DNA of 42,025 nt from an uncultured Oscillospiraceae bacterium (lineage in GTDB: Bacteria > Bacillota > Clostridia > Oscillospirales > Oscillospiraceae), in NCBI GenBank assembly GCA_947632005.1, contig CANRNU010000019.1:1-42025 (forward strand), in the 5' to 3' direction. The notes under the pieces are model-generated. The model made no database searches, was not told where the DNA came from, and worked only from the letters and a program-made list of their open reading frames with translations. Positions 9,580 through 31,416 of the stretch are shown here, piece after piece. Each line of letters starts with the position of its first letter. Positions within the stretch are counted from its first letter, which is position 1. Both the position numbers and the translations under genes were made by a program.

Positions 9580-10365
9580 TCACACCTGATAGCCGAGCTG
9601 ACGGGAGATGCGGTCGGCCGCCTCGTTCAGGCACTGGAGGGTGTGGGCCCGCTTCTCCGCCGTGACCCGCACCGAGGGCATGCTGACGCTGATGCCGGCC
9701 ACGATCTCGCCGGTATAGTCCCGCACGGCCATGGCCATGCAGTACAGTCCCAGGCAGTATTCCTCGTTGTCCACCGCGTAACCCCGCTGGCGGATGATGC
9801 GCTCATCCTTCAGGAGGGCGTCCACGGTGGAGATGGTGTTGGGCGTATAAGTCGGCAGCTCGTTTTTCCCGTCAAAAAGCGAGCGTATCTGGCTGGCGTT
9901 CCACTCGCTGAGCATCATCTTGCCCAGCGCGGTGGCATGGATGGCCTCGTATTCGCCGGGGTTGATGTTGACCCGCAGGTGGTCCCGAACGCCTTCGATC
10001 TTGGAGATGATGACCACCTCGCCCCGCTTGAGCATGCCGAGATTGACCGTCTCGTGGGTCTCGTGGCTGAGGTCCATCAAATAATTCTGGTTGATGTCGA
10101 ACAGCTGGTTTTGCAGGGGAATGACCTGTCCGATCTTATACAGCTCCCAGCCCAGCTTATACCGCTTTGTCTCCGGGTCTTTCTCTACGTAGCCGTAAAA
10201 CTGGAGGGTGTCGAGCAGCCGGTGCACGGTGCTCTTTCCGATACCGAGGAACTGGCTCAGCTCGCTGATGCTGTCGCCTCGGTTGCCTGTGTCCTGGGAA
10301 AGGTGGTTGATGATATCAATGGCCTTTGCAACGGTCTTAACAGGATATTTTGGTTCCTGCATCAT
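9580..10365 (-). CDS. IclR-family transcriptional regulator
   Basis: This 261-residue protein has the two-domain IclR layout. The N-terminal winged helix-turn-helix spans about residues 10-70 (VKTVAKAIDIINHL, then ISELSQFLGIGKSTVHRLLD). The C-terminal effector-binding domain includes NPGEYEAIHATALGKMML and CLGLYCMAMAVRDYTGEIVAGISVS. IclR proteins usually bind small carboxylic or aromatic acids and control nearby catabolic genes. The start ATG 10365 follows AAGGGGG at about 10 nt; ATG 10362 is next to it. It lies directly downstream of ammonia-lyase copy 1 on the same strand, separated by a terminator-like hairpin. A matching 17-bp palindrome in front of two catabolic operons (11233-11249 and 17176-17192) is a candidate binding site, but this link is inference. 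Confidence 0.92.
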   Translation of the reverse strand: MMQEPKYPVKTVAKAIDIINHLSQDTGNRGDSISELSQFLGIGKSTVHRLLDTLQFYGYVEKDPETKRYKLGWELYKIGQVIPLQNQLFDINQNYLMDLSHETHETVNLGMLKRGEVVIISKIEGVRDHLRVNINPGEYEAIHATALGKMMLSEWNASQIRSLFDGKNELPTYTPNTISTVDALLKDERIIRQRGYAVDNEEYCLGLYCMAMAVRDYTGEIVAGISVSMPSVRVTAEKRAHTLQCLNEAADRISRQLGYQV

Positions 10366-10430
10366 AAATGTAAAACCCCCTTAGCGATCACGATTTGCGC
10401 AAAAGACCGGCCGGCCCGCCGTTTGCCCTA

Positions 10431-10473
10431 TCAAAAAATGTCTGAGACCCGAAAAGGCGCAGACATTTTTTGA
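10431..10473. terminator. Intrinsic terminator after ammonia-lyase copy 1
   Basis: A perfect 14-bp inverted repeat (10431-10444 with 10460-10473) has a 15-nt loop and a run of six T (six A on the other arm) within the stem. It lies between the stop of ammonia-lyase copy 1 (10496) and the IclR gene (10365). The shape suits a terminator on either strand. Confidence 0.65.
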
Positions 10474-10493
10474 CGATATGGGACAGTGCCGGT

Positions 10494-10931
10494 TCTCAGC
10501 GGACCTGGAACTTGGGGTCGCCGGCCTCGGGGCGCTGAAGCTCCTTCTTGACCATCAGGGTGCCGGTGCCGTAAGCGCACAGGATGGGTTCGGGATAGAC
10601 GTCGGCGGCGGAGTCGGCCAGACCCTTGGAGCCGTCACGGTCGGCCAGACCCATGACCTTGTGAGCCTCGAAGTGGCAGGTCAGGGAGGTGTTGCCCACC
10701 TTCTCGATCCAGCCGGAATACTCCATCCAGTCGCCGGCGTACACGGGAGCCGTGTAGCGGACCTCGGAGTAGCCGACGAACAGGCTCTCATCGCCGAACA
10801 GGCGGATGGCCAGTTCTGTGCCCACATCGCCCCAGGCGGTCACGATGTGCGCGCCCTCCACCAGCTGGCCGGCGTAGTGGGCGTCCGCAGCGGACATACG
10901 ATAACGCAGGGTAACTTTTTCTCCGATCATG
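10494..10931 (-). repeat. 438-bp exact direct repeat, copy A (contains ammonia-lyase copy 1)
   Basis: By direct comparison this block is identical to 33630-34067, including all synonymous positions. The identity starts two bases before the stop codon and ends one base after the start codon; flanks differ at once on both sides. Both copies are on the minus strand. Confidence 0.93.
10496..10930 (-). CDS. Beta-aminoacyl-CoA ammonia-lyase (beta-alanyl-CoA / 3-aminobutyryl-CoA type), copy 1
   Basis: This 144-residue single hotdog-fold protein removes ammonia from a 3-aminoacyl-CoA to give the 2-enoyl-CoA (beta-alanyl-CoA to acrylyl-CoA, or 3-aminobutyryl-CoA to crotonyl-CoA). Recognition rests on the family string MSAADAHYAGQLVEGAHIV, then WGDVGTEL, SLFVGY, TAPVYAGDWMEY and GWIEKVGN, which I recall closely from Clostridium propionicum beta-alanyl-CoA ammonia-lyase; the later DSAADVYPEPILC segment resembles the lysine-pathway Kal enzymes. 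Substrate is therefore one of these or a methyl-branched relative. ATG 10930 follows AGGAGG by nine bases. A perfect TTGACA-17-TATAAT promoter (11091-11119) gives a leader of about 150 nt containing a hairpin at 10966-10991. An identical gene lies at 33632-34066. Confidence 0.85.
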   Translation of the reverse strand: MIGEKVTLRYRMSAADAHYAGQLVEGAHIVTAWGDVGTELAIRLFGDESLFVGYSEVRYTAPVYAGDWMEYSGWIEKVGNTSLTCHFEAHKVMGLADRDGSKGLADSAADVYPEPILCAYGTGTLMVKKELQRPEAGDPKFQVR

Positions 10932-11232: not shown

Positions 11233-11249
11233 ATTCTAAATAATAGAAT
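11233..11249. promoter_or_regulatory. Candidate operator, palindrome A
   Basis: ATTCTA-AATAA-TAGAAT is a perfect 6-bp inverted repeat with a 5-bp spacer, ending 13 bp before the -35 box of the ferredoxin-operon promoter (centre near -57). The same 17-mer with one change occurs at 17176-17192 in front of the PreA-like gene. IclR-family sites are often AT-rich palindromes of this size, so the adjacent IclR regulator is the obvious candidate. Confidence 0.55.
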
Positions 11250-11375: not shown

Positions 11376-11429
11376 GCATTTGTTTTCCGATGGCGCCGTA
11401 ACAATACAGGATTGTTTAGGAGTGAGTGT

Positions 11430-11645
11430 ATGGTTGGCGCAAAAGGCAGGGTCATAATTGACTTTGATCGCTGCAAAGAATGTGGTTACTGTATCCGATT
11501 TTGTCCGAAGGGCGTCCTCACGAAGGGACAGCGGATCAACAAGAGCGGTTATTACCCGCCGGTGGCGGGGGAGGGCTGTATTGGCTGCGCCACCTGCGCA
11601 CGGGTCTGTCCCGATACGGCGATCTCTGTTTATCGAGAGGAGTGA
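11430..11645 (+). CDS. korD: 2-oxoacid:ferredoxin oxidoreductase delta subunit (2[4Fe-4S] ferredoxin)
   Basis: This 71-residue ferredoxin carries two classic [4Fe-4S] motifs: CKECGYCIRFCP (residues 15-26) and CIGCATCARVCP (residues 50-61). It is the electron-transfer subunit of the oxidoreductase encoded by the next three genes, passing electrons from 2-oxoacid oxidation to soluble ferredoxin. The start ATG 11430 is supported by TAGGAGTGAG just upstream; more distant upstream starts lack a ribosome binding site. It is the first gene of the operon, 11 bases before the alpha subunit. Confidence 0.9.
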   Translation: MVGAKGRVIIDFDRCKECGYCIRFCPKGVLTKGQRINKSGYYPPVAGEGCIGCATCARVCPDTAISVYREE

Positions 11646-11656
11646 GGCAGATACAT

Positions 11657-12712
11657 ATGGGCGAGAAAGTATTTATGCAGGGGAATCAGGCCATGGCGGA
11701 ATCCGCCATCCGGGCCGGCTGTAAGCTGTTTTTCGGCTACCCCATCACCCCCTCCAGCGAGATCCCGGAGTACTATGCCAAGGCCATGCGGGAACGGCCG
11801 GAGGAGAACATCGTGTTCATCCAGGCGGAGACGGAGATCGCCGCGTTCAATATGGTGGCAGGCGCGGTAGCCGCCGGGCACCGGGCTATGACGGCCACGT
11901 CCGGACCGGGCTTCAGCCTGGGCCAGGAGACCTTGTCCTATATGGCGGCAGCCGATCTGCCGGCGGTCGTGGTGGAGGTCATGCGGGCAGGGCCCGCCGA
12001 CGGAGAGATCCTGGCGGCCCAGGGCGACTATTTTCAGGCGGTCAAGGGCGGCGGCCACGGGGACTACAACAACCTGGTCCTGGCGCCCTATTCCGTGCAG
12101 GAGCTCTGCGAGATGATCCAGGAGAGCTTCGTGCTGGCGGAAAAGTATCACAATCCGGTCATCGTTCTCAGCGACGCCACCATCGCCAAGATGCGGGAGT
12201 CGGTGGAGCTGCCCGGATATACCCAGGTCCCTGTGCCGGCGGAGCAGTACAACGCTCTGCGGGGCTGCGGGGACAGCGAGCCCCACAAGATCATCACCTG
12301 CGGGAACGGCCCGGTGCAGTGGGGCCGGTTCAACGAGCGCCTGCAGGAGAAGTTCCGGCGCATCCGGGAGAACGAGGCCCGGTATGCGGCGCAGAACCTG
12401 GAGGACGCGGACATCATCCTGGTGGCGTACGGCTCCATGGCGCGGGTATGCGAGAGCGCGATGCGCATGGCCCGGGAGGAGGGCATCCGGGTGGGCATGA
12501 TACGGCCTATCACCCTCTGGCCCTTCCCGGAGAAGGCGTTCGCGGGCATCACAGGCAAGAAGTTCCTGGTCTGTGAGCTCAGCGCGGGACAGATGGTAGA
12601 GGACGTGAAGCTGTCGGTGGAAGACAAGCGGGATGTGACCTTCTTTGGAAGACTGGGCGGCTCGACGCCCAGCCCCAAGGAGATCATGGAACAGATTCGG
12701 AAGTTGAGGTGA
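11657..12712 (+). CDS. korA: 2-oxoacid:ferredoxin oxidoreductase alpha subunit
   Basis: This 351-residue subunit contains the pyrimidine-binding and transketolase-like domains of a KGOR/VOR-type enzyme that oxidatively decarboxylates a 2-oxoacid to an acyl-CoA, reducing ferredoxin. Family marks are GNQAMAESAIRAGCKLFFGYP near the N-terminus, EIPEYYA, and TATSGPGFSLGQE around residue 80. The C-terminal half (from about 250) carries the transketolase C-terminal-like domain (VAYGSMARV, GMIRPITLWPFP). ATG 11657 follows GAGAGGAGTGAGG. The stop overlaps the GTG start of the beta gene by four bases. The exact substrate (2-oxoglutarate, 2-oxoisovalerate, 2-oxobutyrate or another) cannot be read from sequence. 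Confidence 0.9.
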   Translation: MGEKVFMQGNQAMAESAIRAGCKLFFGYPITPSSEIPEYYAKAMRERPEENIVFIQAETEIAAFNMVAGAVAAGHRAMTATSGPGFSLGQETLSYMAAADLPAVVVEVMRAGPADGEILAAQGDYFQAVKGGGHGDYNNLVLAPYSVQELCEMIQESFVLAEKYHNPVIVLSDATIAKMRESVELPGYTQVPVPAEQYNALRGCGDSEPHKIITCGNGPVQWGRFNERLQEKFRRIRENEARYAAQNLEDADIILVAYGSMARVCESAMRMAREEGIRVGMIRPITLWPFPEKAFAGITGKKFLVCELSAGQMVEDVKLSVEDKRDVTFFGRLGGSTPSPKEIMEQIRKLR

Positions 12713-13473
12713 GTGACGTGAAGGTTGTATATGAAAGGCCGAAGATCTTCACAGATGCGATGACAACCTATTGCGGCGGCTGCGGACACGGCATCGTGGG
12801 CAAGCTCATCGCGGAACTCATCGATGAGATGCATCTGCAGGACAAGGGCATCATGGTCTGGCCCATCGGCTGCTCCTGCCTGTCGGACCGGTACTATAAG
12901 ATGGATATGATGATGGCCCTGCACGGCAGGGCTCCTGCCGTTGCCACCGGCATCAAACGGGCGGAGCCCGACAAGCTGGTGATGGTCTATCAGGGCGACG
13001 GCGACCTGGTGTCCGAGGGCATGGCGGAGATCATGCACGCGGGCATCCGGGGGGAGAAATTCTCCGTGATCTTTATCAACAACGCCATTTACGGCATGAC
13101 CGGCGCCCAGATGGCCCCCACCACCCTTATGGGCCAGCGGGCGTCCACCGCGCCGACAGGCCGGATGGCGGACAACTCCGGCTACCCGGTGCGCATGGCG
13201 GAGATCATGGCGATGCTTCCGGGCGTGGTATACAGCGAGCGGGTGACGGTGAACAGCCCCGCCCGCATCATGGCATGCAAAAAAGCCATCCGCAAGGCAT
13301 TTGAACTGCAGATGTCCGGCAAGGGCCTGGGATTCGTGGAGGTGCTGAGCCCCTGCCCCACGGGCTGGAGCATGTCTCCGGTCAAGTGCCTGGACTGGAT
13401 CGACGAGAAGATGCTGGACGTCTATCCCCTGGGGGTCATCAAGGACGCGGAAAAGGAGGGCGGAGAGAGTTGA
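12709..13473 (+). CDS. korB: 2-oxoacid:ferredoxin oxidoreductase beta subunit (TPP-binding)
   Basis: This 254-residue subunit binds thiamine pyrophosphate: the signature GDGDLVSEGMAEIMHAG with the downstream FINNAIYGMTGAQ segment is at about residues 102-130. Cysteines in YCGGCGHG (residues about 20-27) and CSCL are those that usually hold the proximal [4Fe-4S] cluster. The start is GTG 12709, sharing GTGA with the alpha stop; the stop is likewise shared with the gamma start. Strict overlaps through alpha-beta-gamma imply coupled translation of a stoichiometric complex. Confidence 0.9.
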   Translation: MSDVKVVYERPKIFTDAMTTYCGGCGHGIVGKLIAELIDEMHLQDKGIMVWPIGCSCLSDRYYKMDMMMALHGRAPAVATGIKRAEPDKLVMVYQGDGDLVSEGMAEIMHAGIRGEKFSVIFINNAIYGMTGAQMAPTTLMGQRASTAPTGRMADNSGYPVRMAEIMAMLPGVVYSERVTVNSPARIMACKKAIRKAFELQMSGKGLGFVEVLSPCPTGWSMSPVKCLDWIDEKMLDVYPLGVIKDAEKEGGES

Positions 13474-14000
13474 AGCAGGAACTGCTGTTTTCCGGCGTGG
13501 GCGGCCAGGGGATCATCACCCTGGGCGAGGCCCTCTGTGACGCGGCCATCAAGGCCGGGTTCAACGTGACGTTCGTCCCCTTTTACGGCCAGGAGAAACG
13601 GGGCGGCAAGACCATGTGCAACATCGTCATCTCCGACCAGGTGGAGAGCCCCATCATCTCCGGCACGGACCTGATGCTGATCATGGATGAGCAGTCCCTG
13701 AGCGACTATCAGGACCTGATGTACGACAGCGGCACCCTTGTCATCAACAGCTCCATGGTGGAGAAAGAGCCCGTGTGCCGGTGTGCCGACATCCGGAAGG
13801 TCCCCTTTTACGACATCGCCCAGCAGCTGGGCAATTCCAAAACATCCAATATCGTGGCGCTGGGCTACCTGGCCCGGCTGCTGCCTATGGTCCCTTACGA
13901 CCTTATCGCCGCGGAGGTGGAGAAATCCTTCGCCGCGAAGCCAAAGCTGATCCCTCTGAACCTGGAAGCCCTGCGGAAGGGCTATGAACTGGAGAGCTGA
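13470..14000 (+). CDS. korC: 2-oxoacid:ferredoxin oxidoreductase gamma subunit
   Basis: This 176-residue gamma subunit is recognisable from LLFSGVGGQGIITLGEAL at its N-terminus and the YGQEKRGGKTMCNIVIS segment at about residues 40-56, typical of the POR/KOR gamma domain. The start is TTG 13470, overlapping the beta stop as TTGA, with AAAGGAGGGCGGAGAG upstream; an apparent upstream ATG in this frame falls inside the beta gene and is not needed. It completes a four-subunit delta-alpha-beta-gamma enzyme. A 60-bp gap separates it from the acyl-CoA dehydrogenase gene. Confidence 0.9.
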   Translation: MKQELLFSGVGGQGIITLGEALCDAAIKAGFNVTFVPFYGQEKRGGKTMCNIVISDQVESPIISGTDLMLIMDEQSLSDYQDLMYDSGTLVINSSMVEKEPVCRCADIRKVPFYDIAQQLGNSKTSNIVALGYLARLLPMVPYDLIAAEVEKSFAAKPKLIPLNLEALRKGYELES

Positions 14001-14060: not shown

Positions 14061-15209
14061 ATGGATTTCAAACTGGACAAGGCGCATCAGTTGCAGCAAG
14101 AGCTGTTCCGGAACTTTGCGGAGACGGAGATCCGGCCCATAGCGAAGGAGATGGACGAGAACGAGGCGCTGGACCTGGATATGCTGAAGAAGGCGGCGAA
14201 GTACGGACTGTTCGGCATACCGTACAGCAAGGAGTACGGCGGCGCGGGTTCGGACACTCTGGCCTACACGCTGTGCATGGAGGAGATCTCCAAGGTAGAC
14301 GCCAGCACGGGCGTCACCATCTCCGTACATACCTCCCTGTGCTGCTCCTGCATCAACAACTTCGGCACGGAGGAGCAGAAGCAGACCTATCTGCGTCCCC
14401 TGGTGGACGGCAGCAAGTTTGGCTGCTTTGGCCTGACGGAGACCAACGCGGGCTCCGATGTGCAGGGCGCCCAGACCACCGCGGTGAAGGACGGGGACGA
14501 CTGGATCATCAACGGCTCCAAGATCTTCACCACCAACTCGGGCTTTGCGGACACCTGCATTCTGTTCGCGCTGACGGACCGGACGGTGCCGGCTTCCAAG
14601 GGTCTGACGGCCTTCATCGTGGACCTGAAGAACACCCCGGGCATCACGGTGAGCGACAACATCGAGCGGATGGGCATCCGAGCGGCCAGCAACTGCATCG
14701 TGACGTATGAGAACGTGCGCGTGACGCCGGACCGTGTGCTTGGGCCTCTCGGGAAGGGCTTCAAGATCGCCATGACGGCGCTGGACACGGGACGAATCGG
14801 CATCGCGGCGCAGGCGCTGGGCATCGCCCAGGGCGCCCTCAACGAGGCCATCAAGTACGGCAAGGAGCGCAAGCAGTTCGGCAAGCCCATCAATGCCTTC
14901 CAGAACACCCAGTTCAAGATGGCGGAGCTGCAGACGAAGATCGACGCGGCGCGGCTGATGGTGTGGCGCGCGGCGTGTGCGGAAGACAACCATGAGCCTT
15001 ATGGGCCTCTGGCAGCCATGGCGAAGCTGATGGCGTCGGACGTGGCCAACCAGGTGACGCGGGAGTGCGTGCAGTTCATGGGCGGCTACGGCTACTGCCG
15101 AGAGTACCCGGTGGAGCGGATGATGCGCGACGCGAAGATCACCGAGATCTACGAGGGGACCAGCGAGGTCATGAAGATGGTCATCTCCGGGTCCATGAAG
15201 CTGAAGTAA
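14061..15209 (+). CDS. Acyl-CoA dehydrogenase (short-chain, butyryl/acryloyl-CoA reductase type)
   Basis: This 382-residue FAD flavoprotein has the usual alpha-beta-alpha acyl-CoA dehydrogenase layout. Visible motifs are FGLTETNAGSDVQG (about 124-137), WIINGSKIFTTNS, ERKQFGKPI near 275 and the C-terminal IYEGTSEV, whose catalytic base is E365. With EtfAB encoded next, it most likely runs as an enoyl-CoA reductase, e.g. crotonyl-CoA to butyryl-CoA or, given the neighbouring ammonia-lyase, acrylyl-CoA to propionyl-CoA. ATG 14061 follows GGGAGG; an in-frame upstream ATG (14019) lacks a ribosome binding site. Substrate length is not determinable by eye. Confidence 0.9.
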   Translation: MDFKLDKAHQLQQELFRNFAETEIRPIAKEMDENEALDLDMLKKAAKYGLFGIPYSKEYGGAGSDTLAYTLCMEEISKVDASTGVTISVHTSLCCSCINNFGTEEQKQTYLRPLVDGSKFGCFGLTETNAGSDVQGAQTTAVKDGDDWIINGSKIFTTNSGFADTCILFALTDRTVPASKGLTAFIVDLKNTPGITVSDNIERMGIRAASNCIVTYENVRVTPDRVLGPLGKGFKIAMTALDTGRIGIAAQALGIAQGALNEAIKYGKERKQFGKPINAFQNTQFKMAELQTKIDAARLMVWRAACAEDNHEPYGPLAAMAKLMASDVANQVTRECVQFMGGYGYCREYPVERMMRDAKITEIYEGTSEVMKMVISGSMKLK

Positions 15210-15224: not shown

Positions 15225-16013
15225 ATGAAGATCGTAGTATGCATCAAGCAGGTCCCGGACACGGCGGAAGTGCGGCTGGACCCGAAGACCGGGACCCTGA
15301 TCCGAGACGGCGTGCCCAGCATCATCAACCACGACGACAAGGCAGGCCTGGAAGCGGCGCTGACGCTGCGGGAGAAGGTCGGCGGCACGGTGACGGTGGT
15401 CTGCATGGGTCCCCCGCAGGCGGACGTGGCCATGCGGGAGGCGCTGGCCATGGGCGCGGACGAGGCATATCTGGTGTCCGGGCGTGAGTTTGGCGGCTCG
15501 GATACCTACGCCACGGCGACGATCATCGCCACGGCGCTGCGGAAGATCGGGTATGACCTGGTAATCACGGGCCGGCAGGCCATCGACGGCGACACGGCCC
15601 AGGTGGGCCCGCAGATCGCCGAGCAGCTGCATATCCCCCAGGTGAGCTATGCGGAGAGCCTGGATGTAGAGGGCGACAGCGTAGTGGTAAAGCGGCAGTA
15701 TGAGGACCAGTCCCACATGCTGAAGGTGAAGCTGCCCTGCCTGGTGACGGCGCTGAGCGAGCTGGCGGAGCCCCGGTACATGCACGTGGGTGGCATCGTG
15801 GACGCGTACCAGAAGGAAGTGAAGGTCCTGGGCTTTGAGGATCTGAAGAACGACCTGAATCCGGAGTGGATCGGACTGAAGGGGTCGCCCACGAATGTGT
15901 TCATGTCCTTCGGCAAGCAGCCCAAGGCGGCCGGGCATATGCTGACCGGGCTGTCGGCGGACGAGGCCGTGGCCGCGATCATGGAAAAGCTGATCGAGCG
16001 GCACATCATCTGA
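15225..16013 (+). CDS. etfB: Electron transfer flavoprotein subunit beta
   Basis: This 262-residue EtfB starts at ATG 15225 after GAGGGAGGAAG. The family signature CIKQVPDT is at residues 6-13. The segment GRQAIDGDTAQVGP (about 117-129) is the kind seen in electron-bifurcating Etf proteins, where EtfB binds FAD instead of AMP. This suggests NADH-driven enoyl-CoA reduction coupled to ferredoxin reduction, though non-bifurcating relatives also exist. The neighbouring acyl-CoA dehydrogenase and EtfA form the expected complex, 15 bases apart on each side. Confidence 0.92.
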   Translation: MKIVVCIKQVPDTAEVRLDPKTGTLIRDGVPSIINHDDKAGLEAALTLREKVGGTVTVVCMGPPQADVAMREALAMGADEAYLVSGREFGGSDTYATATIIATALRKIGYDLVITGRQAIDGDTAQVGPQIAEQLHIPQVSYAESLDVEGDSVVVKRQYEDQSHMLKVKLPCLVTALSELAEPRYMHVGGIVDAYQKEVKVLGFEDLKNDLNPEWIGLKGSPTNVFMSFGKQPKAAGHMLTGLSADEAVAAIMEKLIERHII

Positions 16014-17175: not shown

Positions 17176-17192
17176 ATTCTAAATAATAGAAC
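17176..17192. promoter_or_regulatory. Candidate operator, palindrome B
   Basis: ATTCTA-AATAA-TAGAAC matches palindrome A (11233-11249) at 16 of 17 positions. It lies 120 bp upstream of the PreA-like start codon in otherwise AT-rich sequence. No good sigma-A promoter is evident directly after it, so an activator-dependent promoter is possible. Confidence 0.55.
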
Positions 17193-24244: not shown

Positions 24245-25597
24245 ATGGCTGACTATGAGTTCCACTTTGGACACTTTTTGGACATGGCCGCCGGCCTGCG
24301 GTTTGAGGACCTGGGCCCTGCCACAGTCAGCCGCACGGAACGGGTGGTGTTCGACACCATAGGCGCGATGCTCAGCGGCTCCCTGGAGCCGGAGAACCGC
24401 GCGATGGTGCGCCGGCTGCCCGCTGCCTCCGGCCGCGCCGCCACGGCGTTTGCCGAAGGCTTCCCCGCCACGGACGCCCTCTGGGCCGCGTTTTTCAATG
24501 CCACAGAGGTCGTCTTCCTGGAGATGGACGAACATCACCGCCCCACAGGCCACCCGGGCTCCCATGTGGTGCCCTCGGCCCTGGCGCGGGCGGAGGCCGA
24601 GGACTGCTCGGGCCGGGAGCTCATCACCGCCATCGTGGCGGGGTATGACCTGGCCGCCCGGCTGGCGAACGGCTGCACGCTGCGGGATTTCATGCACTGT
24701 CACGGGCATATGGGCGCCACGGGCGCGGCCCTGGCAAACGGAAAGCTCCTGGGTTTTGACCGGGAACACCTCCGTCAGGCGGTGCATGTGGCCGCGGGGA
24801 TGCCGCTGTTCTCCTCCTGGGAGCCCTGCTTTGAAGGGGCCACCGTGCGCAACACCTATACGGGGGTCGCCGCGGGGGTGGGCATCCTGGCCGCCGAACT
24901 GGCGGGAAGCGGGTTCACCGGGCTGTCCAACGCCCTGGAGCACACCTTCGGAGAGCTGGTAGGCTCCCACCTGGAGCTGTCCGCCCTGGACGAGGACCTG
25001 GCCGCGCCGTTTCAGATCGACACGGACATGTTCAAGTTCCACGCCTGCTGCGCCATGAACCACCCCCCGGTGGAGGCGCTGCTGAAGGCGCTGAACGGGC
25101 GGCGGCTGGACAGCCGGGATATCGACCACATCGACCTGCGGGTGACGGCGCGGAGCATGCGCCTGGACCGTCTGCCCGCCCCGAAGCAGCTGTCCGCCAA
25201 ATTCTCCATTCCCTTCGCCGTGGCCACCACGGTCTTTCACGGCCATGCCCATCCCGAGGCATTCCGGGATGAGAAGGCCGCCGATCCGGCCATTCTGGAT
25301 CTTGCCGGTCGGGTACACATGATCCCTGACGAGGAGCTCACCGCCCGCTGGCCCAAGGACGGCGGCGCGGACATACAGGTCTTTCTGAAGGACGGGGAGG
25401 TCCTGCACGGACACGTGGACAACCCCTACGGATGGCTGACCGAGCCCAGCACGGACCAGGACCTGGTGGACAAATTTTCCCTGCTGAACGCGGAGCTCTA
25501 TACGCCCCAACAGGCGCAGCAGATCTTTGAGCTGTGCGATCAGCTGGCGGATGCACCGAGCATATCCCAGTTTATCCAACGTCTGAAAGACGTCTGA
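24245..25597 (+). CDS. MmgE/PrpD family protein
   Basis: This 450-residue protein belongs to the MmgE/PrpD fold, which includes 2-methylcitrate dehydratase, cis-aconitate decarboxylase and iminodisuccinate epimerase. Supporting segments are VVFDTIGAMLSGSLEP, the HPGSHVVPSALA and GYDLAARLANG region, GHMGATGAALANGKLLGFD near 155-173, and FKFHACCAMNHPPVEAL near 260, where family members carry active-site His/Lys. No other methylcitrate-cycle gene is present, so dehydration, decarboxylation or epimerisation of a locus intermediate is more likely than propionate catabolism by that route. ATG 24245 follows GCGGAGGGATAG. Confidence 0.82.
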   Translation: MADYEFHFGHFLDMAAGLRFEDLGPATVSRTERVVFDTIGAMLSGSLEPENRAMVRRLPAASGRAATAFAEGFPATDALWAAFFNATEVVFLEMDEHHRPTGHPGSHVVPSALARAEAEDCSGRELITAIVAGYDLAARLANGCTLRDFMHCHGHMGATGAALANGKLLGFDREHLRQAVHVAAGMPLFSSWEPCFEGATVRNTYTGVAAGVGILAAELAGSGFTGLSNALEHTFGELVGSHLELSALDEDLAAPFQIDTDMFKFHACCAMNHPPVEALLKALNGRRLDSRDIDHIDLRVTARSMRLDRLPAPKQLSAKFSIPFAVATTVFHGHAHPEAFRDEKAADPAILDLAGRVHMIPDEELTARWPKDGGADIQVFLKDGEVLHGHVDNPYGWLTEPSTDQDLVDKFSLLNAELYTPQQAQQIFELCDQLADAPSISQFIQRLKDV

Positions 25598-25767: not shown

Positions 25768-27384
25768 ATGATCAAAATTACGAAGGAATTGCTGCCCAGC
25801 AAGCCACAGGAAAAGGTATGGAATACCTGGAACTACTTCGCCCTGTGGATCGGCATGAATGTGGCTGTGGCGACCTATTACGTCGTGGACAGCTACATGC
25901 AGCTGGGCCTCGCTGTCTGGCAGGTCATCCTGAGCATCGCCATCGGCTGCCTGGTGCTTGTGCTGCCCATGGCCGCCAACGGCCATGCCGGACAGAAATA
26001 CGGCATCCCGTCCCCTGTGTATTGGCGTTCCGCCTGCGGCTATAAGGGCTCCAGCGTGACCGCCATCATCCGCGCCTGCGTCGCGGTGTTCTACTTTGGT
26101 ATCCACCTGTATATCGGCGCCCAGTGCGTCAACGCCGCCATCCGGACCGTCGTCCCCGCCTGGGGAGACCTGTCCTTTGGCTTCGGCATCAGCTTCGGCC
26201 TGTACTGGCTGGTCACCCTCTGGGTGCTGACCAAGGGCGCCACCATGCTGAAGAAGATCGAGAGCTTCAGCGCGCCCCTGCTCATCGTCTGGATGGTCGT
26301 GCTTCTCGTCTGGGGCTACCGTCACGCTGACGGCTGGGGCACCCTGATCTCCCAGCCCGCCACCGTCTCCGGCAGCGCTCTGCGCAACCAGATGCTGGTC
26401 TGCATCACCGCCACCATCGGCTGGTGGGCCACCCTGGTGCTGAATATCACCGACTTCACCCGTTACTCCAAGGACCAGAAGTCCCACGTCATCGGTTCCG
26501 CCATCGGCAACCCGGTGGGCTTCTGCGGCCTGGCCCTGGTGGGCGCGCTGGTCACCAGCTGCTCCGTCGTCATGTTCGGCGAGGCCATCTGGGACCCCGT
26601 GGAGCTGACGTCCCGTGTGGACAGCGCCCTGTTCGTGGTGGGCATGCTGGTGTTCCTCGGCCTGGCTGAGATCTCCACCAACACCGCCGCCAACGCCTGG
26701 GCCCCCTGCATGGACATCTCCACCGTCTCCGGCGGCCGGCTCTCGTTCAAACAGGCCGTCATCATTTTCGGCGTGGGTTCCCTGCTTACCCAGCCCTGGA
26801 AAATGATGGCCTCCTCCGACCTGTACGTGAACGCGTTCCTGGTCTGCTCCGGCGGCATCCTGGCCCCTCTGGCCGGCGTGAACATCGCCAACTACGTCTT
26901 CATCCGCAAGACCAAGCTGGACCTGAGCGCTCTGTACGACCCCGACGGGGAGTTTGCGTACAAGCGTATGTCCAAGTATAACATGCCGTTTGCCATCATC
27001 ATGTACGTCATCGGCGGCGTGCTGGTGCTGCTGGGCTTCGTGTGCAACAAGGAGTACCTTGCCACCACCAGCGCCATCGGCCTGTCCATGCGCCTGACTT
27101 ACATCGCTCTGGCCCTGTTCTTCCTGATCTTCGCCACCCTTCTGGTGAAGAACAAGAACGGCGGCTACAACCCCGTGGCATTTTTCACCATCGCCGTGAG
27201 CGTGCTGTGCACCTTCATCGGCGTGTACGTTCCCTCCCTGGCCGTCCTCTACAACGGCGCCTGGTTCGTGGCCACCATCGTCTCCATCGTGCTCTACTAT
27301 GTGCTGATGAAGGTCCTTGACCCCGAGTTCGGCAACGCCGTGGAGAACCTGGAGATCGACACCAGCAAATTTGAGATCAACTAA
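25768..27384 (+). CDS. NCS1-family nucleobase/hydantoin/allantoin:cation symporter
   Basis: This 538-residue permease has about 12 hydrophobic segments and the NCS1 pattern: a short N-terminal tail with NTWNYFALWIGMNVAV, a PVYWRSACGYKGS segment after helix 2, and TLVLNITDFTRYSKDQK with IGSAIGNPVG after helix 6, the family fingerprint. NCS1 proteins take up uracil, cytosine, hydantoins, allantoin or related ureides with sodium or protons. It therefore supplies the likely starting substrate of this locus. The 170-bp region before it contains GC-rich inverted repeats and a possible TATAAC box but no convincing -35. ATG 25768 follows GAGGAGAG. Confidence 0.9.
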   Translation: MIKITKELLPSKPQEKVWNTWNYFALWIGMNVAVATYYVVDSYMQLGLAVWQVILSIAIGCLVLVLPMAANGHAGQKYGIPSPVYWRSACGYKGSSVTAIIRACVAVFYFGIHLYIGAQCVNAAIRTVVPAWGDLSFGFGISFGLYWLVTLWVLTKGATMLKKIESFSAPLLIVWMVVLLVWGYRHADGWGTLISQPATVSGSALRNQMLVCITATIGWWATLVLNITDFTRYSKDQKSHVIGSAIGNPVGFCGLALVGALVTSCSVVMFGEAIWDPVELTSRVDSALFVVGMLVFLGLAEISTNTAANAWAPCMDISTVSGGRLSFKQAVIIFGVGSLLTQPWKMMASSDLYVNAFLVCSGGILAPLAGVNIANYVFIRKTKLDLSALYDPDGEFAYKRMSKYNMPFAIIMYVIGGVLVLLGFVCNKEYLATTSAIGLSMRLTYIALALFFLIFATLLVKNKNGGYNPVAFFTIAVSVLCTFIGVYVPSLAVLYNGAWFVATIVSIVLYYVLMKVLDPEFGNAVENLEIDTSKFEIN

Positions 27385-27398: not shown

Positions 27399-28235
27399 AT
27401 GCGTGAAGTGACCCTGGGCCTGATCCAGCTGGAACCCAAGCTGGGCGACACGGCCTACAACTGCCAGCATTCCATCGAGCTCATCCGCAAGGCGGCTGCC
27501 AAGGGCGCGCAGATCTGCGTACTGCCTGAGACCGCCATCACCGGCTATGACCTGACCATCTACGACCAGCAGGCATTTTACGACATGGCCGAGACCCTGG
27601 ACGGCCCCACTGTCACGGCCCTGCGGGCCACGGCCAAGGAGCTGGGCGTGTACATCGTCGCGGGCATGGCCCTGCGGACCCCCGAAGCTCCCGTCATGGA
27701 GAACGCCATGGTGTTCATCCAGGACGACGGCGAGCTGGGCGAGACCTATTTCAAGAACCACCTGTTCGGGCCGGAGCAGCAGTACTTTATCAAGCACAAC
27801 CGCTTCCCGGTCTATGACACCAAGTACGGCAAGATCGGCCTGATGTGCTGCTATGACGCCAACTTCCCCGAGCCGGGCCGTCTTCTGACCCTCAAGGGCG
27901 CCGAGCTCATCCTCCACAGCGCCACCTGGCGCCGGGAGGACGAGGACGTCTGGCACCTGATGCTGCCCTGCCGGGCGGCGGAGAACGTGGTCTTCTTTGC
28001 CTCCACCAACACCTTCGGCCAGGCTCCCAGCCGCTATACCTTCGGCCGCTGCAAGGTCATCAACCCCCGCGGCGTCGTGGTGGCGGAGACCGGCATGTGG
28101 GAGGAGGAGGTCCTGGTGGCCACCATCGACCTGGACCAGGTCGCCCAGTGGCGCAAGGAGATGCTCTATCTGGACGATCTCAATCCCACCGTTTACGGAC
28201 AGCTGGACGAACAGTACAAGCAGTTCAGCAAATAA
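27399..28235 (+). CDS. Carbon-nitrogen hydrolase (beta-ureidopropionase / N-carbamoyl amino acid hydrolase type)
   Basis: This 278-residue nitrilase-superfamily enzyme shows the full catalytic triad: E44 in LPETAITGYD, K119 in ETYFKNHLFG and the nucleophile C151 in MCCYDANFPEPG. Members cleave amide or carbamoyl C-N bonds. Next to a cyclic amidohydrolase and an NCS1 permease, the best guess is hydrolysis of an N-carbamoyl amino acid to amino acid, CO2 and ammonia; other amidase activities are possible. It starts at ATG 27399 after AAGGAGG, 14 bases after the permease stop, so the two are co-transcribed. It appears redundant with the carbamoyltransferase route. Confidence 0.85.
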   Translation: MREVTLGLIQLEPKLGDTAYNCQHSIELIRKAAAKGAQICVLPETAITGYDLTIYDQQAFYDMAETLDGPTVTALRATAKELGVYIVAGMALRTPEAPVMENAMVFIQDDGELGETYFKNHLFGPEQQYFIKHNRFPVYDTKYGKIGLMCCYDANFPEPGRLLTLKGAELILHSATWRREDEDVWHLMLPCRAAENVVFFASTNTFGQAPSRYTFGRCKVINPRGVVVAETGMWEEEVLVATIDLDQVAQWRKEMLYLDDLNPTVYGQLDEQYKQFSK

Positions 28236-28250
28236 GCAATCTTACTTACC

Positions 28251-28285: not shown

Positions 28286-28299
28286 ACCGGGGACCATTT

Positions 28300-29343
28300 A
28301 TGAACGTCGCACATGTTCTTCTGACCCTGGCCTTTGCGGCCGTAGGCGCCGGTATCTTCCTGGTGTGCAAGATACCCGGCAGCCTGATGGTGGGGGCCAT
28401 GACGGCCACCATCGCCACGAACCTCCTGCTGCACACCGGCGAGCTCCCCTCCGGCATGTCTGTGTTCGTACAGTACCTGCTGGGCTGCTACATCGGCAGC
28501 ATGCTCCACAAGAGCGACATCATCAAATTGAAGACCCTGGCGGCCCCGGCGGCAGTGCTGACCGGATGCATGACCGCCTATGCCCTGGCGGCGGGGTTCA
28601 TCCTCCGGGCGGTGTCCTCCTGCGACACCCTCACGTCCCTGTACGCCACCGCCCCCGGCGGCATGGTGGAGGTCTGCATCTTCGCCGCCGACGTGGGGGC
28701 CAACACCTCCTTCATTGCCGGGTTCCACACCCTGCGCACGGCGGTGCTGTATTTCCTGGTGCCTGTGATGGCCACGGTCTGCCTGAAAAAAGAGCGCAAG
28801 GGCGACAGCGAGAGCGTGAAAGCCCCCGCGCCCGCCAAGACCGGCAGATGGAAACAGCGGGCGCTGTTTCTGGCCATGACCCTGGCGGTGGGACTGGTGG
28901 GCGCTTTCCTGGGCAAGGTCTCCGGCATCCCCGCCGGAACGCTTCTCATCACCATCATTGTGGTGGGCCTGTTCAGCATCGCCACAGGAAAGACCTATAT
29001 CCCCGTGTGGCTGAAGCGCGCCAGCCAGATCATGAGCGGCGCGGTGGTGGGCCTGCGGTGCAGCCTGGACGAGCTGATGCAGATCAAGGACGTGCTGCCC
29101 CTGGTCCTGGTGGTCATCCTGGGGTACCTGCTCCTGACGATCGTGCTGGGCCGGCTGCTGGCCCGGAAGGGCTATGTGGACCTGCCCACGGGCATCTTTT
29201 CCTGCTGCGCCGGCGGCGTCAGCGATGTGACGCTGGTGGCCAGCGACTATAACGTGGATATCACCAAGGTGGTCCTGCTCCATCTTGTCAGATATTTCAG
29301 CATCTTCATCACCTATCCCATCGTATCGGCGATCTTCGGATAA
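28300..29343 (+). CDS. AbrB-family membrane protein (PF05145 type)
   Basis: This 347-residue integral membrane protein has two similar halves, each of about five hydrophobic segments. The halves are joined by a charged linker near residues 165-185 (KKERKGDSES, KTGRWKQR). Matches such as IPGSLMVGAM in the first half, IPAGTLL in the second, and LYATAPGGMVEVC versus IFSCCAGGVSDVTLV show the internal duplication typical of the AbrB membrane family, sometimes annotated as putative ammonia monooxygenase. It is probably a transporter; neighbours suggest an organic acid, amino acid or ammonium product, but no substrate is known. ATG 28300 has only a weak GGGGA upstream. Confidence 0.78.
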   Translation: MNVAHVLLTLAFAAVGAGIFLVCKIPGSLMVGAMTATIATNLLLHTGELPSGMSVFVQYLLGCYIGSMLHKSDIIKLKTLAAPAAVLTGCMTAYALAAGFILRAVSSCDTLTSLYATAPGGMVEVCIFAADVGANTSFIAGFHTLRTAVLYFLVPVMATVCLKKERKGDSESVKAPAPAKTGRWKQRALFLAMTLAVGLVGAFLGKVSGIPAGTLLITIIVVGLFSIATGKTYIPVWLKRASQIMSGAVVGLRCSLDELMQIKDVLPLVLVVILGYLLLTIVLGRLLARKGYVDLPTGIFSCCAGGVSDVTLVASDYNVDITKVVLLHLVRYFSIFITYPIVSAIFG

Positions 29344-29366
29344 ATCTATTGTGAGGAGACATCAAC

Positions 29367-30308
29367 ATGAGCAACAGCAAAAAACGGATCGTTGTGGCAC
29401 TGGGCGGAAACGCCCTGCAGGACGCCCATAGCGGCGCCACTGCCGAGGAACAGCTGCAGGTGGCGAAAAAGACCTGCGATTACATCGTAGAGCTTATCAA
29501 AGCCGGCAATGAGGTCGTGATCGTCCACGGAAACGGCCCCCAGGTGGGACGCATCGTGCTGGCCAGCGAGACGGCCCGGGATGTGACGCCGGCCATGCCC
29601 TTTGACGTCTGCGGCGCCATGAGCCAGGGCTATATCGGCTATCATATCCAGCAGGCCTTGAGCGAGAAGCTGCGGAAGGCCGGCATCGATATGCCGGTGG
29701 TGACGCTGGTGACCCAGGTGGTCGTGGACGGGCAGGACCCGGCCTTCGGCGCCCCCTCCAAGCCCATCGGTCCCTTCAACACCAAGGAGCAGGCGGAGGA
29801 GCTGATCCGCACCAAGGGCTACACCATGAAAGAGGACGCCGGCCGCGGCTGGCGCCGGGTGGTGGCGAGCCCCCGCCCCGTGGACATCGTGGAGCTGGAC
29901 ACCATCCATAAGCTGGTGGGCAGCAGCATCGTGATCACCTGCGGCGGCGGCGGTATCCCCGTGGTGCGCAAGGAAGACGGCAGCCTGGAAGGCGTGGCGG
30001 CGGTCATCGACAAGGACTTTGCCGCGGAGCTGGTGGCGGAGAAGGTGGACGCGGACATGCTGCTCATCCTCACCGAGGTGGAGCATGTGGCCGTGAACTT
30101 CAACAAGCCCGACCAGCGTGACCTGACGACCATGACGGTGGCCGAGGCGGAGAAATATATGGCCGAGGGCCAGTTCGCCCCCGGGTCCATGCTCCCCAAG
30201 GTCCAGGCGGCGGTGAAGTTCGCCCAGACCGGCAAGAGCGCCGTCATCACTTCCCTGTACTGCGCGGTGGACGCCGTGGCGGGCAAGACGGGCACGACCA
30301 TCCGGTGA
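29367..30308 (+). CDS. arcC: Carbamate kinase
   Basis: This 313-residue enzyme interconverts carbamoyl phosphate + ADP with carbamate + ATP. It has the amino-acid-kinase signatures VVALGGNAL at the N-terminus, VIVHGNGPQVG near 50, RVVASPRPVDIVE near 165, CGGGGIPVV near 192 and VIDKDFAAELVA near 214, and the usual length. No arginine deiminase gene is present, so it is not the arginine pathway. With a carbamoyltransferase in the same run it can gain one ATP per carbamoyl group. ATG 29367 follows GTGAGGAG. Confidence 0.95.
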   Translation: MSNSKKRIVVALGGNALQDAHSGATAEEQLQVAKKTCDYIVELIKAGNEVVIVHGNGPQVGRIVLASETARDVTPAMPFDVCGAMSQGYIGYHIQQALSEKLRKAGIDMPVVTLVTQVVVDGQDPAFGAPSKPIGPFNTKEQAEELIRTKGYTMKEDAGRGWRRVVASPRPVDIVELDTIHKLVGSSIVITCGGGGIPVVRKEDGSLEGVAAVIDKDFAAELVAEKVDADMLLILTEVEHVAVNFNKPDQRDLTTMTVAEAEKYMAEGQFAPGSMLPKVQAAVKFAQTGKSAVITSLYCAVDAVAGKTGTTIR

Positions 30309-30348
30309 CGGTACCGGCGTGATTAACAATATTTGGAGGTAACATTAC

Positions 30349-31416
30349 ATGGCAACTCAGAAGGTATATGTCGCAAAGGATGTTTTGCTGGACTACTGCA
30401 CCAAGATCTTCTGCGCCGCGGGCATGGAGCCGGAGGACGCGGTCGTTGTGGCCGACAACCTGGTGTTTGCTGACCTGCGGGGCATGGACTCCCACGGCGT
30501 GATGCGCGTGCCCGCCTATACCAAGCGGCTGCGGGACGGCGGCACCCTCCCCAAGAGCGACATCGAGATCGTCCGTCAGAGCCCCACCACCGCCGTGGTG
30601 GACGGCCACAACGGCATGGGCCAGGTGGTGAGCAAGTTCTGCATGGAACTGGCCATCGACAAGGCCGACAAGGCGGGCGTGGCCTTCGTGGCCGCCCGGG
30701 GGAGCAACCACTTCGGCATGGCCTCCTACTTCTCCCAGATGGCGCTGAAGCATGACATGATCGGCATGGTCTGCACCTCCCCGGCGGCGCATCTGCTGGC
30801 GCCCACCGGCGGCATCGACCCCATTCTGGACAACAACCCGTTCTCCTTCGCCATCCCCGCCGGGGAGCAGTTCCCCGTGGTGCTGGACATGGCCACCTCC
30901 GTGGTGTCCCGCGGCAAGATCGCGTCCGCCAAAAAGCGCGGCGACCGCATCCCCTGGGACTGGGCCATGACCATCGACGGCGAGCCCACCGATGACCCGG
31001 ACCTGGCCTTCGACGGCATCCTGCTGCCCGTGGGCGGCTATAAGGGCTACGGCCTGACGGTCATCTCCGGCGTGATGGCGGCCATGCTCAGCAATGCCGC
31101 GCTCCTCAGCCGGGATATCTGCGACTTCTATACCGACACCGACCGGCCCCAGAACATCGGCCACCTGTTCGGCGCCATCAAGATCGACTGCTTCTGCGAC
31201 GTGCCTGACTTCAAGGCCCGGATGGATGAGATGGTCCTGGAGATCAAGGGCAGCCGCAAGGCCAAGGGCGTGGAGGAGATCATCCTGCCCGGCGAGCGGG
31301 GCTACAAGAACTACCGGCGCAACAGCGCCGAGGGCGTGCCTCTGAACGAGACGGTGTTCAACGACATGAACGCTGTCGCCGTCAGCTATGGCATGGAGCC
31401 GCTGAAGCTGGCCTGA
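30349..31416 (+). CDS. Malate/L-lactate/ureidoglycolate dehydrogenase family (Ldh_2)
   Basis: This 355-residue NAD(P)-dependent dehydrogenase belongs to the Ldh_2 family. Characteristic segments are ADLRGMDSHGVMRVPAY (residues about 43-59, with the conserved His), ARGSNHFGMASYFS around 120 and VLDMATSVVSRGKI near 182. The family oxidises 2-hydroxyacids such as malate, lactate and (S)-ureidoglycolate (AllD) to 2-oxoacids. Next to carbamate kinase and a carbamoyltransferase, the AllD-type role (ureidoglycolate to oxalurate) is a serious option; lactate or another hydroxyacid is equally possible given the LarA-type protein. ATG 30349 follows TTGGAGG. It ends the plus-strand run, before a strong terminator. 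Confidence 0.88.
   Translation: MATQKVYVAKDVLLDYCTKIFCAAGMEPEDAVVVADNLVFADLRGMDSHGVMRVPAYTKRLRDGGTLPKSDIEIVRQSPTTAVVDGHNGMGQVVSKFCMELAIDKADKAGVAFVAARGSNHFGMASYFSQMALKHDMIGMVCTSPAAHLLAPTGGIDPILDNNPFSFAIPAGEQFPVVLDMATSVVSRGKIASAKKRGDRIPWDWAMTIDGEPTDDPDLAFDGILLPVGGYKGYGLTVISGVMAAMLSNAALLSRDICDFYTDTDRPQNIGHLFGAIKIDCFCDVPDFKARMDEMVLEIKGSRKAKGVEEIILPGERGYKNYRRNSAEGVPLNETVFNDMNAVAVSYGMEPLKLA

Follow-up and report, generated by a model that had tools for sequence, protein, structure and literature searches.

A putative two-operon locus that may join reductive cyclic-ureide breakdown to acyl-CoA chemistry in an uncultured Oscillospiraceae bacterium

Gene Content and Proposed Pathway

Why would genes for the reduction and opening of a nucleobase-like ring stand beside genes for the reduction of an acyl-CoA? 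A preliminary description of the window (the whole stretch of DNA analysed, 42,025 nucleotides) had read positions 9580-31416 as a candidate route from uracil (or thymine) to propionate (or isobutyrate). We scored the predicted genes against curated profile cut-offs (NCBIfam/TIGR), Pfam and their nearest PDB entries; the host draft genome measures 2.3 Mb and is 77.6% complete. All the genes named in that description are indeed intact ORFs in this interval, and its gene list is borne out; the interval also holds VorDABG (11430-14000), LarA, an SSS symporter, a PrpD-family protein, an AbrB-family membrane protein and a malate/sulfolactate-type dehydrogenase, all absent from the description, as was a second, base-identical ammonia-lyase gene, acl2. 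Two operons can be distinguished, acl1/vorDABG-acdA-etfBA and another that begins preA-hyd-carbamoyltransferase:

9580..10365, minus strand, IclR-family regulator (PF01614 E 3.8e-41; PF09339)
10496..10930, minus, acl1, predicted beta-aminoacyl-CoA (beta-alanyl-CoA type) ammonia-lyase, hotdog fold (PDB 4mtu E 2.3e-41)
11430..11645, plus, vorD, ferredoxin-type subunit (Fer4 Pfam matches)
11657..12712, plus, vorA, 2-oxoacid:ferredoxin oxidoreductase (NF005507 456 bits, cut-off 399)
12709..13473, plus, vorB, TPP subunit (PorB/KorB family 117.5 bits, below the cut-off of 262)
13470..14000, plus, vorG, gamma subunit (ORF, named from operon position)
14061..15209, plus, acdA, acryloyl-CoA reductase/acyl-CoA dehydrogenase-like (NF042972 AcrC 447.7 bits, cut-off 640)
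15225..16013, plus, etfB (NF040731 356 bits, AcrB 320 bits, both under cut-off)
16028..17104, plus, etfA (NF042970 AcrA 426.6 bits, cut-off 600)
17312..18529, plus, preA-like, FMN domain and C-terminal 2[4Fe-4S] (NF006183 398 bits, cut-off 335)
18549..19892, plus, cyclic amidohydrolase (hyd), allantoinase/L-hydantoinase-like (AllB 336 bits, cut-off 358; 1gkr E 6e-70)
19962..20954, plus, carbamoyltransferase with knotted YgeW/AOTC-type sequence marks (proline-rich loop, KSWG motif)
21007..22287, plus, LarA-family nickel-pincer 2-hydroxyacid racemase (LarAH6 malate racemase 315 bits, cut-off 500)
22391..24078, plus, small membrane ORF (from translation) and SSS sodium:solute symporter (TIGR00813 193 bits, above cut-off)
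24245..25597, plus, MmgE/PrpD-family protein (PF03972, PF19305; closest PDB entry iminodisuccinate epimerase)
25768..27384, plus, NCS1 nucleobase/allantoin-type permease (TIGR00800 265 bits, cut-off 353; allantoin permease 244 bits, cut-off 620)
27399..28235, plus, C-N hydrolase of the nitrilase superfamily (nitrilases and N-carbamoyl amidohydrolases among its PDB relatives)
28300..29343, plus, AbrB-family membrane protein (PF05145 E 3.5e-68)
29367..30308, plus, carbamate kinase (TIGR00746 402 bits, cut-off 358)
30349..31416, plus, type-2 malate/sulfolactate/ureidoglycolate dehydrogenase (NF040650 275 bits, cut-off 500; closest PDB entry malate dehydrogenase 1v9n)
33632..34066, minus, acl2, second ammonia-lyase gene, in a separate operon (435/435 bases the same as acl1)

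Within the limits of each search, 60 near genomes, 394 of the same order and 398 of the same phylum (host included) yielded no close relative of the ureide genes tested, and no second genome among those searched carries the entire locus.

In our best reading, two IclR-linked operons would ferment a cyclic ureide of pyrimidine type, with the ureide serving as electron sink, by a reductive pathway that yields ATP and leads into acyl-CoA chemistry; we put the probability of this reading at about 40%. The parts of the pathway are known, and their combination appears to be new. We infer the reactions, the substrate and the electron flow from the gene content, from residue signatures and from a site shared by the two operons. 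The NCS1 permease would take up the ring, the PydA-type PreA would reduce it with reduced ferredoxin, and the amidohydrolase would then open it, giving an N-carbamoyl amino acid that the YgeW-like carbamoyltransferase would split with phosphate; carbamate kinase could then convert carbamoyl phosphate to ATP. The leftover beta-amino acid would become a CoA ester in a putative activation step, Acl would deaminate this ester to an enoyl-CoA, and AcdA-EtfBA would yield the saturated acyl-CoA (propionyl-CoA from uracil, isobutyryl-CoA from thymine). On the oxidative side, LarA and the malate/sulfolactate-type dehydrogenase may feed a 2-hydroxyacid to VorDABG, which would give reduced ferredoxin and an acyl-CoA, oxidation of the hydroxy or oxo acid paying for ureide reduction in a Stickland-like manner. 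The preliminary scheme leaves LarA, PrpD and this dehydrogenase without explanation; ours gives no role to PrpD, the SSS symporter or the AbrB-family protein, which counts against it. The fully specified version, a Stickland-type nucleobase fermentation in one regulon, with a 2-hydroxy/2-oxo acid oxidized via LarA, the malate-type dehydrogenase and Vor, and the nucleobase as the electron acceptor turned into short-chain acyl-CoA with phosphorolytic ATP, we consider unlikely.

Acyl-CoA Genes and Electron Supply

Over the stretch aligned, the acl1 product is 54% identical to beta-alanyl-CoA:ammonia lyase 2 of C. propionicum (4mtu, its best PDB match), and it scores below the cut-off of NCBIfam KAL (129 bits, cut-off 160); by homology, Acl is probably a beta-alanyl-CoA-type ammonia-lyase. 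The top NCBIfam matches of AcdA and EtfA are AcrC and AcrA, and AcrB comes second for EtfB, all under the curated cut-offs. According to the accessible part of PMC5861303, the Acr-Etf complex of C. propionicum appears to be non-bifurcating; the ATP from electron bifurcation put forward in the preliminary description gains no support from this precedent.

By calculation, the conversion of uracil to propionate, CO2 and 2 NH3 takes up four electrons, which the chain needs from outside and which Vor, missed in the preliminary description, could supply; within the regulon, Vor stands out as the source of low-potential electrons. The earlier claim of uracil to propionate is only partly supported: the amidohydrolase is not dihydropyrimidinase-like, the searches turned up no dedicated CoA-transferase, the C. 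propionicum precedent appears not to bifurcate and the chain by itself has no redox balance. The CoA-transferase gap had been acknowledged and persists: none is found among the window's annotated genes, and a profile search of the host genome returned no match for PF01144 or PF02515 and one for PF13336, on another contig (C36).

This gap disappears if Vor itself makes the CoA ester. LarA and the dehydrogenase would then provide a 4-amino- or 4-hydroxy-2-oxoacid from a 2-hydroxyacid, Vor would decarboxylate it to a beta-amino- or beta-hydroxyacyl-CoA, Acl would remove ammonia or water and AcdA-EtfBA would reduce the enoyl-CoA, the ureide genes releasing an amino acid that feeds the route. Genome G337, of the same family, bears on this alternative, as acl directly adjoins vorDABG in two of its seven acl stretches read: L102, with Vor 75-83% identical to that of the window (75% for the ORF equivalent to vorG), and L105, with Vor 56-76% identical and an IlvD/Edd-type dehydratase next to it. 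A third acl locus (L099) holds LarA-group-22, IlvD/Edd-type and galactarate-dehydratase-like genes and, at L113, a LarA-like ORF (by reading of the ORF) adjoins an AllD-like gene. No ureide genes lie beside Vor-acl in the G337 stretches read, and PreA has no match in G337 at E<=1e-30. Vor beside acl without ureide genes fits this alternative better than our preferred reading, and such short ureide-free contigs suggest that the acyl-CoA half, Vor with Acl, may be a portable module. However, the vor-adjoining acl copies are only 45-49% identical to the window acl (L102 also carries a closer copy, with 81% identity over 91 residues, as a second and divergent gene), the L102 and L105 contigs are only 6.2 and 6.5 kb long, with identical inverted ends in L105 that could be an assembly artefact, and the action of Acl on a beta-hydroxyacyl-CoA is hypothetical. 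We also know of no cyclic ureide that this gene set would convert to a 4-amino-2-oxo acid, and we consider this alternative unlikely. The scattered occurrence in relatives that the preliminary description had set against a joint locus is seen in part, for acl and vor, which recur in G337 with no PreA match.

A Shared Inverted Repeat at the Two Promoter Regions

An inverted repeat, ATTCTA-AATAA-TAGAAT, lies between acl1 and vorD (11233..11249, plus strand), and a second copy with 1 mismatch in 17 lies upstream of preA (17176..17192, plus); with up to three mismatches allowed, the expectation in the window is 0.00 in 100 shuffles. Its 15-base core occurs without mismatch exactly twice in the 2.3 Mb draft, once ahead of vorD/acl1 and once ahead of preA, and matches at 2-3 mismatches are close to background (38 in total versus 28 for the reversed-pattern control). 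Divergent sigma70-type promoter matches surround the first repeat (11119, minus, 12/12; 11263, plus, 11/12; 10 matches in the region versus 4.7 in shuffles), and a strong hairpin terminator (10425-10480, z -5.1) separates the IclR gene from acl1. We regard ATTCTAAATAATAGAAT as a putative regulator site that the IclR-family protein may bind. A site present at both promoter regions links the ureide operon with the acyl-CoA one, in support of the connection between the two halves made in the preliminary description.

Could unrelated catabolic operons lie side by side by chance? Vor, acl and acdA-etf do recur in G337 stretches without ureide genes, and a part in ureide breakdown is not obvious for LarA, SSS or PrpD, but the perfect site copies, confined in the draft to these two promoter regions, and the single co-directional run in which carbamoyltransferase and carbamate kinase bracket LarA, SSS, PrpD and NCS1 make chance quite improbable.

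Ring Opening and Carbamoyl Transfer

The amidohydrolase falls short of the dihydropyrimidinase profile TIGR02033 (213 bits, cut-off 393) and is closest, by profiles and PDB entries, to allantoinase and L-hydantoinase, which counts against uracil as the substrate. This likeness favours an anaerobic breakdown of allantoin or hydantoin by AllB, a ureidoglycolate-dehydrogenase-like enzyme, carbamoyltransferase, carbamate kinase and NCS1, with PreA peripheral, as do the scores of NCS1 to allantoin permease (244 bits) and of the dehydrogenase to ureidoglycolate dehydrogenase (236 bits). None of these scores, however, reaches its curated cut-off, the dehydrogenase lies closer to malate/sulfolactate enzymes, AllC and AllFGH are absent among the window's annotated genes, and PreA and Acl would be left without explanation; such a breakdown is very doubtful.

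The fold of the carbamoyltransferase is confirmed, and its knotted type is predicted from sequence marks: a KSWG motif (versus an SMG-type motif in ArgF-like rows), a proline-rich loop, an extended 120's loop and a Lys at the start of the 240's loop, in line with the knotted transcarbamylase group defined in PMC4581275. The enzyme is thus predicted to be YgeW-like, with a Leu, by alignment reading, at the position equivalent to YgeW Q160. In reductive urate breakdown, as far as the portion of PMC12507026 at hand describes it, YgeW, with phosphate, takes the product that HyuA forms from ureidomethyl-hydantoin on to albizziin, the substrate of YgeW carrying a 2-ureido (alpha) group. Together with carbamate kinase, a YgeW-like enzyme makes the ATP from carbamoyl phosphate proposed in the preliminary description a reasonable expectation. 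One has to consider that N-carbamoyl-beta-alanine is a beta-ureido acid, and this difference from the alpha-ureido substrate of YgeW counts against our preferred reading, as does the Leu at the Q160 position. Phosphorolytic splitting of ring-derived ureido acids has been described in the breakdown of urate (YgeW), allantoate (UGTCase) and oxalurate (AllFGH); the window enzyme is a candidate for the phosphorolysis of a pyrimidine-derived one. The C-N hydrolase is 28-32% identical to those in five Pyd-context stretches, and M20-type PydC has no match in the 77.6%-complete host genome.

The PreA-like Reductase

PreA keeps N609, E611, N668, C671 and N736 (pig numbering). E611 and N668 occur together in 11/11 Pyd-context and 6/6 unassigned relatives, and D611/S668 in all 20 relatives from urate clusters (context labels assigned within this analysis); the window PreA has E/N, a pyrimidine-type signature that upholds the earlier naming of this reductase. 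The urate clade leaves PreA outside in the tree (100/100), on a very long branch (1.89), a kind of placement that the tree program flags as unsure, and 8 of the 68 conserved columns are altered, T737 and the position following the catalytic Cys among them, which speaks against uracil as the substrate; the long branch and the altered active-site neighbours suggest that the substrate may be new. Judged by its residues, PreA is probably a divergent PydA-family reductase of pyrimidine type. No gene for a PreT-like NAD(P)H-oxidising partner is found among the window's annotated genes; a ferredoxin-dependent PydAc has already been described (PMC7332683).

A UacX-type reductase was rejected for PreA, as 2/2 diagnostic residues are absent, and a variant reductive uric acid pathway (UacX-HyuA-YgeW-carbamate kinase) is highly improbable even though the nine closest PreA relatives by plain identity (43-45%) are urate-context proteins, with a HyuA-like gene in 8/9 of the stretches read, a YgeW-like gene in 5/9 and carbamate kinase in 3/9, since XdhD and YgeY also have no match in the host genome (77.6% complete) at E<=1e-10 and the SsnA-like match reaches only 28%.

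Comparison with Known Pathways

If our preferred reading is right, it would let anaerobes draw both ATP and a short-chain acyl-CoA from rings of nucleobase type: ring reduction with phosphorolysis would be combined with an acrylate-type acyl-CoA outlet, two pathways each described on its own, and Vor with Acl would be an acyl-CoA module that is met repeatedly, within one bacterial family, in catabolic loci of different kinds; each proposed step falls within standard enzyme assays.

As proposed for the window, an FMN/Fe-S PydA-family protein that lacks an NAD(P)H domain reduces the ring in the PydAc type of the Pyd pathway (PMC7332683), which also has a cyclic amidohydrolase, a C-N hydrolase and, in some clusters, an NCS1 permease. 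PydAc, however, has two ferredoxin domains and the window PreA one, the amidohydrolase subfamilies differ, carbamoyltransferase and carbamate kinase are added to the C-N hydrolase in the window, and acyl-CoA genes stand where Pyd has malonic semialdehyde enzymes; unlike Pyd, the 77.6%-complete host genome shows no match to PydC (M20) or, at E<=1e-10, to the PydD of L087. The reductive uric acid pathway (XdhD-YgfK/UacX-SsnA-HyuA-YgeW-YqeA-YgeY-YgeX), as covered in the same portion of PMC12507026, shares the module of reductase, amidohydrolase, YgeW-like carbamoyltransferase and carbamate kinase; it differs by a diaminopropionate lyase in place of acyl-CoA genes, by the pyrimidine-type residues of the window PreA and by XdhD and YgeY, unmatched in the host genome. 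The anaerobic allantoin pathway with the oxamic transcarbamylase AllFGH, in the excerpt of PMC11326118 consulted, has in common an AllB-like amidohydrolase, an AllD-superfamily dehydrogenase and ATP from carbamoyl phosphate, whereas the window has a YgeW-like enzyme and adds PreA and acyl-CoA genes. The beta-alanine/acrylate route of C. (Anaerotignum) propionicum, so far as the available sections of PMC4619459 and PMC13067684 extend, shares an ammonia-lyase of Acl type with the window, and its acryloyl-CoA reductase AcrCBA has a putative counterpart there in AcdA-EtfBA; in contrast, the window has no Act-type CoA-transferase in the locus and has Vor and ureide genes linked by a common site.

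Gene Content of the Locus

The window is the entire contig C19 (42,025 bases) of a draft genome of 2.32 Mb, estimated to be 77.6% complete with 5.1% contamination. Every gene named in the preliminary description of this DNA was found, all with open reading frames and intact in the window, so that its gene list is borne out; Vor (the VorDABG 2-oxoacid:ferredoxin oxidoreductase), LarA, PrpD, a symporter and a dehydrogenase also lie in the locus and were absent from that list. The features are as follows:

1-7323: galactoside block of solute-binding protein, ABC permeases and LacZ (Bga2A, over cut-off), with a GH53 galactanase on the opposite strand to the rest
7532-9403, minus: 623-codon open frame between the GH53 gene and iclR, no Pfam match
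9580-10365, minus: iclR, separated from acl1 by a strong terminator
10496-10930, minus: acl1, for a beta-alanyl-CoA-type ammonia-lyase (Acl)
11430-17104, plus: vorDABG, acdA, etfB, etfA
17312-31416, plus: ureide run, with preA, amidohydrolase, carbamoyltransferase, larA, SSS symporter and small membrane ORF, prpD, NCS1, C-N hydrolase, AbrB-family membrane protein, carbamate kinase and malate/sulfolactate-type dehydrogenase
31550-38708, minus: second operon, with amino-acid permease, carboxynorspermidine-synthase-like dehydrogenase, CoA-acylating aldehyde dehydrogenase, acl2, AAA ATPase and VWA protein

This grouping is real and beyond chance, and it is best read as a pathway that breaks down a cyclic ureide by reduction and phosphorolysis, coupled to acyl-CoA genes. 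To that extent the pathway first proposed, from uracil or thymine to propionate or isobutyrate, is partly supported, while uracil, propionate and electron bifurcation are unproven.

Enzymes of the Ureide Run

Aligned with pig dihydropyrimidine dehydrogenase, the PreA-like protein retains N609, E611, N668, S670, C671, H673 and N736 and carries Ser at the position of T737, all positions with roles in uracil binding and catalysis. We gathered 37 PreA relatives and labelled them by their gene neighbours as urate-cluster (20), Pyd-cluster, i.e., reductive pyrimidine degradation (11), or unassigned (6). Asp611 and Ser668 are found in 20/20 urate-cluster relatives; Glu611 and Asn668, as in the window PreA, are found in 11/11 Pyd-cluster and 6/6 unassigned ones. 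In the tree, the urate clade leaves out the window PreA with a support of 100/100, and the latter groups with the PydA-type proteins of loci L056-L058 (support 96/84), a place that is unsure because its own branch measures 1.89; these three loci have no PreT/GltD-like partner within 20 kb. By plain identity, the nearest proteins are urate-context ones (43-45%). The reductive urate pathway was rejected, given the residue signature of PreA and the genes missing from the 77.6%-complete draft.

Of 68 columns with 90% or more conservation among the other sequences, the window PreA differs at 8, including the position that follows the catalytic Cys (P in 37/37 relatives) and T737 (37/37); the same count gives 10/70 each for the relatives L066 and L086, 7/70 for L070 and at most 5 for the other 34. 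From its sequence, we read the window PreA as a pyrimidine-type enzyme with a drifted pocket, perhaps suited to a substituted pyrimidine. Because the annotation of the window includes no PreT-like gene, the likely electron donor is ferredoxin, by analogy with PydAc, for which this donor has been demonstrated (PMC7332683); PydAc has two ferredoxin domains, as opposed to one in the window PreA.

The closest matches of the amidohydrolase are L-hydantoinase 1gkr and allantoinases, and it scores under the cut-offs of 25/25 models among the matches listed. Its metal ligands appear intact at the known ligand positions. In the carbamoyltransferase, KSWG replaces the SMG-type motif, and both a proline-rich loop and an extended 120's loop are present; PMC4581275 gives these as marks of knotted transcarbamylases. 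Judged by these motifs, the carbamoyltransferase is putatively of the knotted type, and its AlphaFold model (pLDDT 71) confirms the fold, though not the knot. YgeW, from the knotted group, has phosphate and a ureido acid as its substrates in the reductive breakdown of urate (PMC12507026); by manual reading, Leu matches YgeW Q160 in the window protein, and the HCLP motif is HPLP.

Acyl-CoA Genes and Redox Balance

Acl shares 54% identity with C. propionicum Acl2; AcdA is nearest to AcrC and EtfA to AcrA, and the second match of EtfB is AcrB, all under cut-offs. By our own calculation, the conversion of uracil to propionate, CO2 and 2 NH3 consumes four electrons, so the uracil-to-propionate chain of the preliminary description, with ATP from carbamoyl phosphate and electron bifurcation, cannot stand alone. 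Vor could supply low-potential electrons, with LarA and the dehydrogenase supplying its 2-oxoacid. As for bifurcation, the Acr-Etf precedent in C. propionicum appears to be non-bifurcating (PMC5861303).

In the same-family genome G337, which has 10 Acl matches, vorDABG directly adjoins acl in 2/7 stretches read (short contigs of 6.2 and 6.5 kb), followed in one by an IlvD/Edd-type dehydratase gene; a third acl stretch holds LarA-group-22, IlvD/Edd-type and galactarate-dehydratase-like genes. For the copies in contact with vor, identity to the window acl is 45-49%; at locus L102 a more similar copy, 81% identical across 91 residues, begins about 0.5 kb further on. Alongside acl-vor, G337 carries acdA-etfBA (75-82% identity to the window's), and it yielded no PreA hit at E<=1e-30, so Vor and Acl seem to form a module that works apart from ureides. 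No Vor was seen at the other same-family acl loci read (L106-L110, five stretches in four genomes).

The CoA-transferase gap recorded in the preliminary description persists, as a dedicated enzyme is still missing: in the draft, neither PF01144 nor PF02515 has a match, and PF13336 has one, on contig C36, some 4 kb away from an EtfA-like fragment (ORFs read manually). Alternatively, Vor itself may make a beta-substituted acyl-CoA.

A Shared Inverted Repeat

The six-base inverted repeat ATTCTA-AATAA-TAGAAT lies at 11233, between acl1 and vorD, with a near-consensus promoter match 13 bases downstream, and a second copy with one mismatch lies at 17176, upstream of preA. Shuffled versions of the window gave no copy at up to three mismatches. 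The 15-base core has two perfect copies in the draft, both in this window, and with up to three mismatches 38 matches versus 28 for a reversed-pattern control. The shared repeat links the acyl-CoA and ureide operons and is a putative binding site of the IclR protein encoded nearby; at locus L099 of G337, too, acl adjoins an IclR gene (37% identity). A site-like sequence with three mismatches directly ahead of the C36 CoA-transferase gene, inside its apparent promoter, was dismissed, such matches being at background level. Another inverted repeat, AACAAT-ACAGG-ATTGTT, occupies 11400-11416 and precedes the vorD start by 13 bases.

Distribution and Origin

A contig scan with the carbamoyltransferase gave 5 distant loci (41-43%), and the amidohydrolase gave long matches of only 27-36% in 59 relatives, some short pieces being higher. 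Across 394 same-order genomes including its own, with at most two candidates scored per genome, a fused query (amidohydrolase, carbamoyltransferase and PrpD) reached 43% at best, with no PrpD among the matches listed outside its own genome; for PreA, the best was 45% in 398 same-phylum genomes, own included, with at most four candidates scored per genome. Within these searches, the tested ureide genes have no close relatives outside their own genome. Of the seven same-genus stretches read, four show synteny with the left flank (SBP-permease-permease-LacZ), with identities of 91-94% for the permeases, 77% for LacZ and 78-90% for SBP; no locus gene matched in these seven stretches, nor was the right flank matched. 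Within this sampling, the locus is therefore specific to its lineage, and it was probably acquired. Contamination of the draft was judged unlikely given the left-flank synteny and the presence of LacZ in 12/35 genus genomes, own included. We found no published account of the joined pathway in the open-licence literature, subscription papers falling mostly outside this coverage.

Second Operon and acl Copies

The 31550-38708 operon could convert 3-aminopropanal from polyamines to beta-alanyl-CoA and acryloyl-CoA. Its acl2 (33632-34066) is identical to acl1 at 435/435 coding bases, with unrelated flanks; recombination between these direct repeats, which enclose about 23 kb and almost all of the locus, is possible in principle. 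In G337 (loci L099, L100, L102, L103 and L105), at least four acl copies, three of them cut by contig ends, share 99.6-100% identity over 150-343 shared bases and are just 76-80% identical to the window acl, and one 6.5-kb contig carries an identical inverted pair at its two ends. These patterns point to homogenisation inside each genome, or else to recent copying that happened repeatedly.
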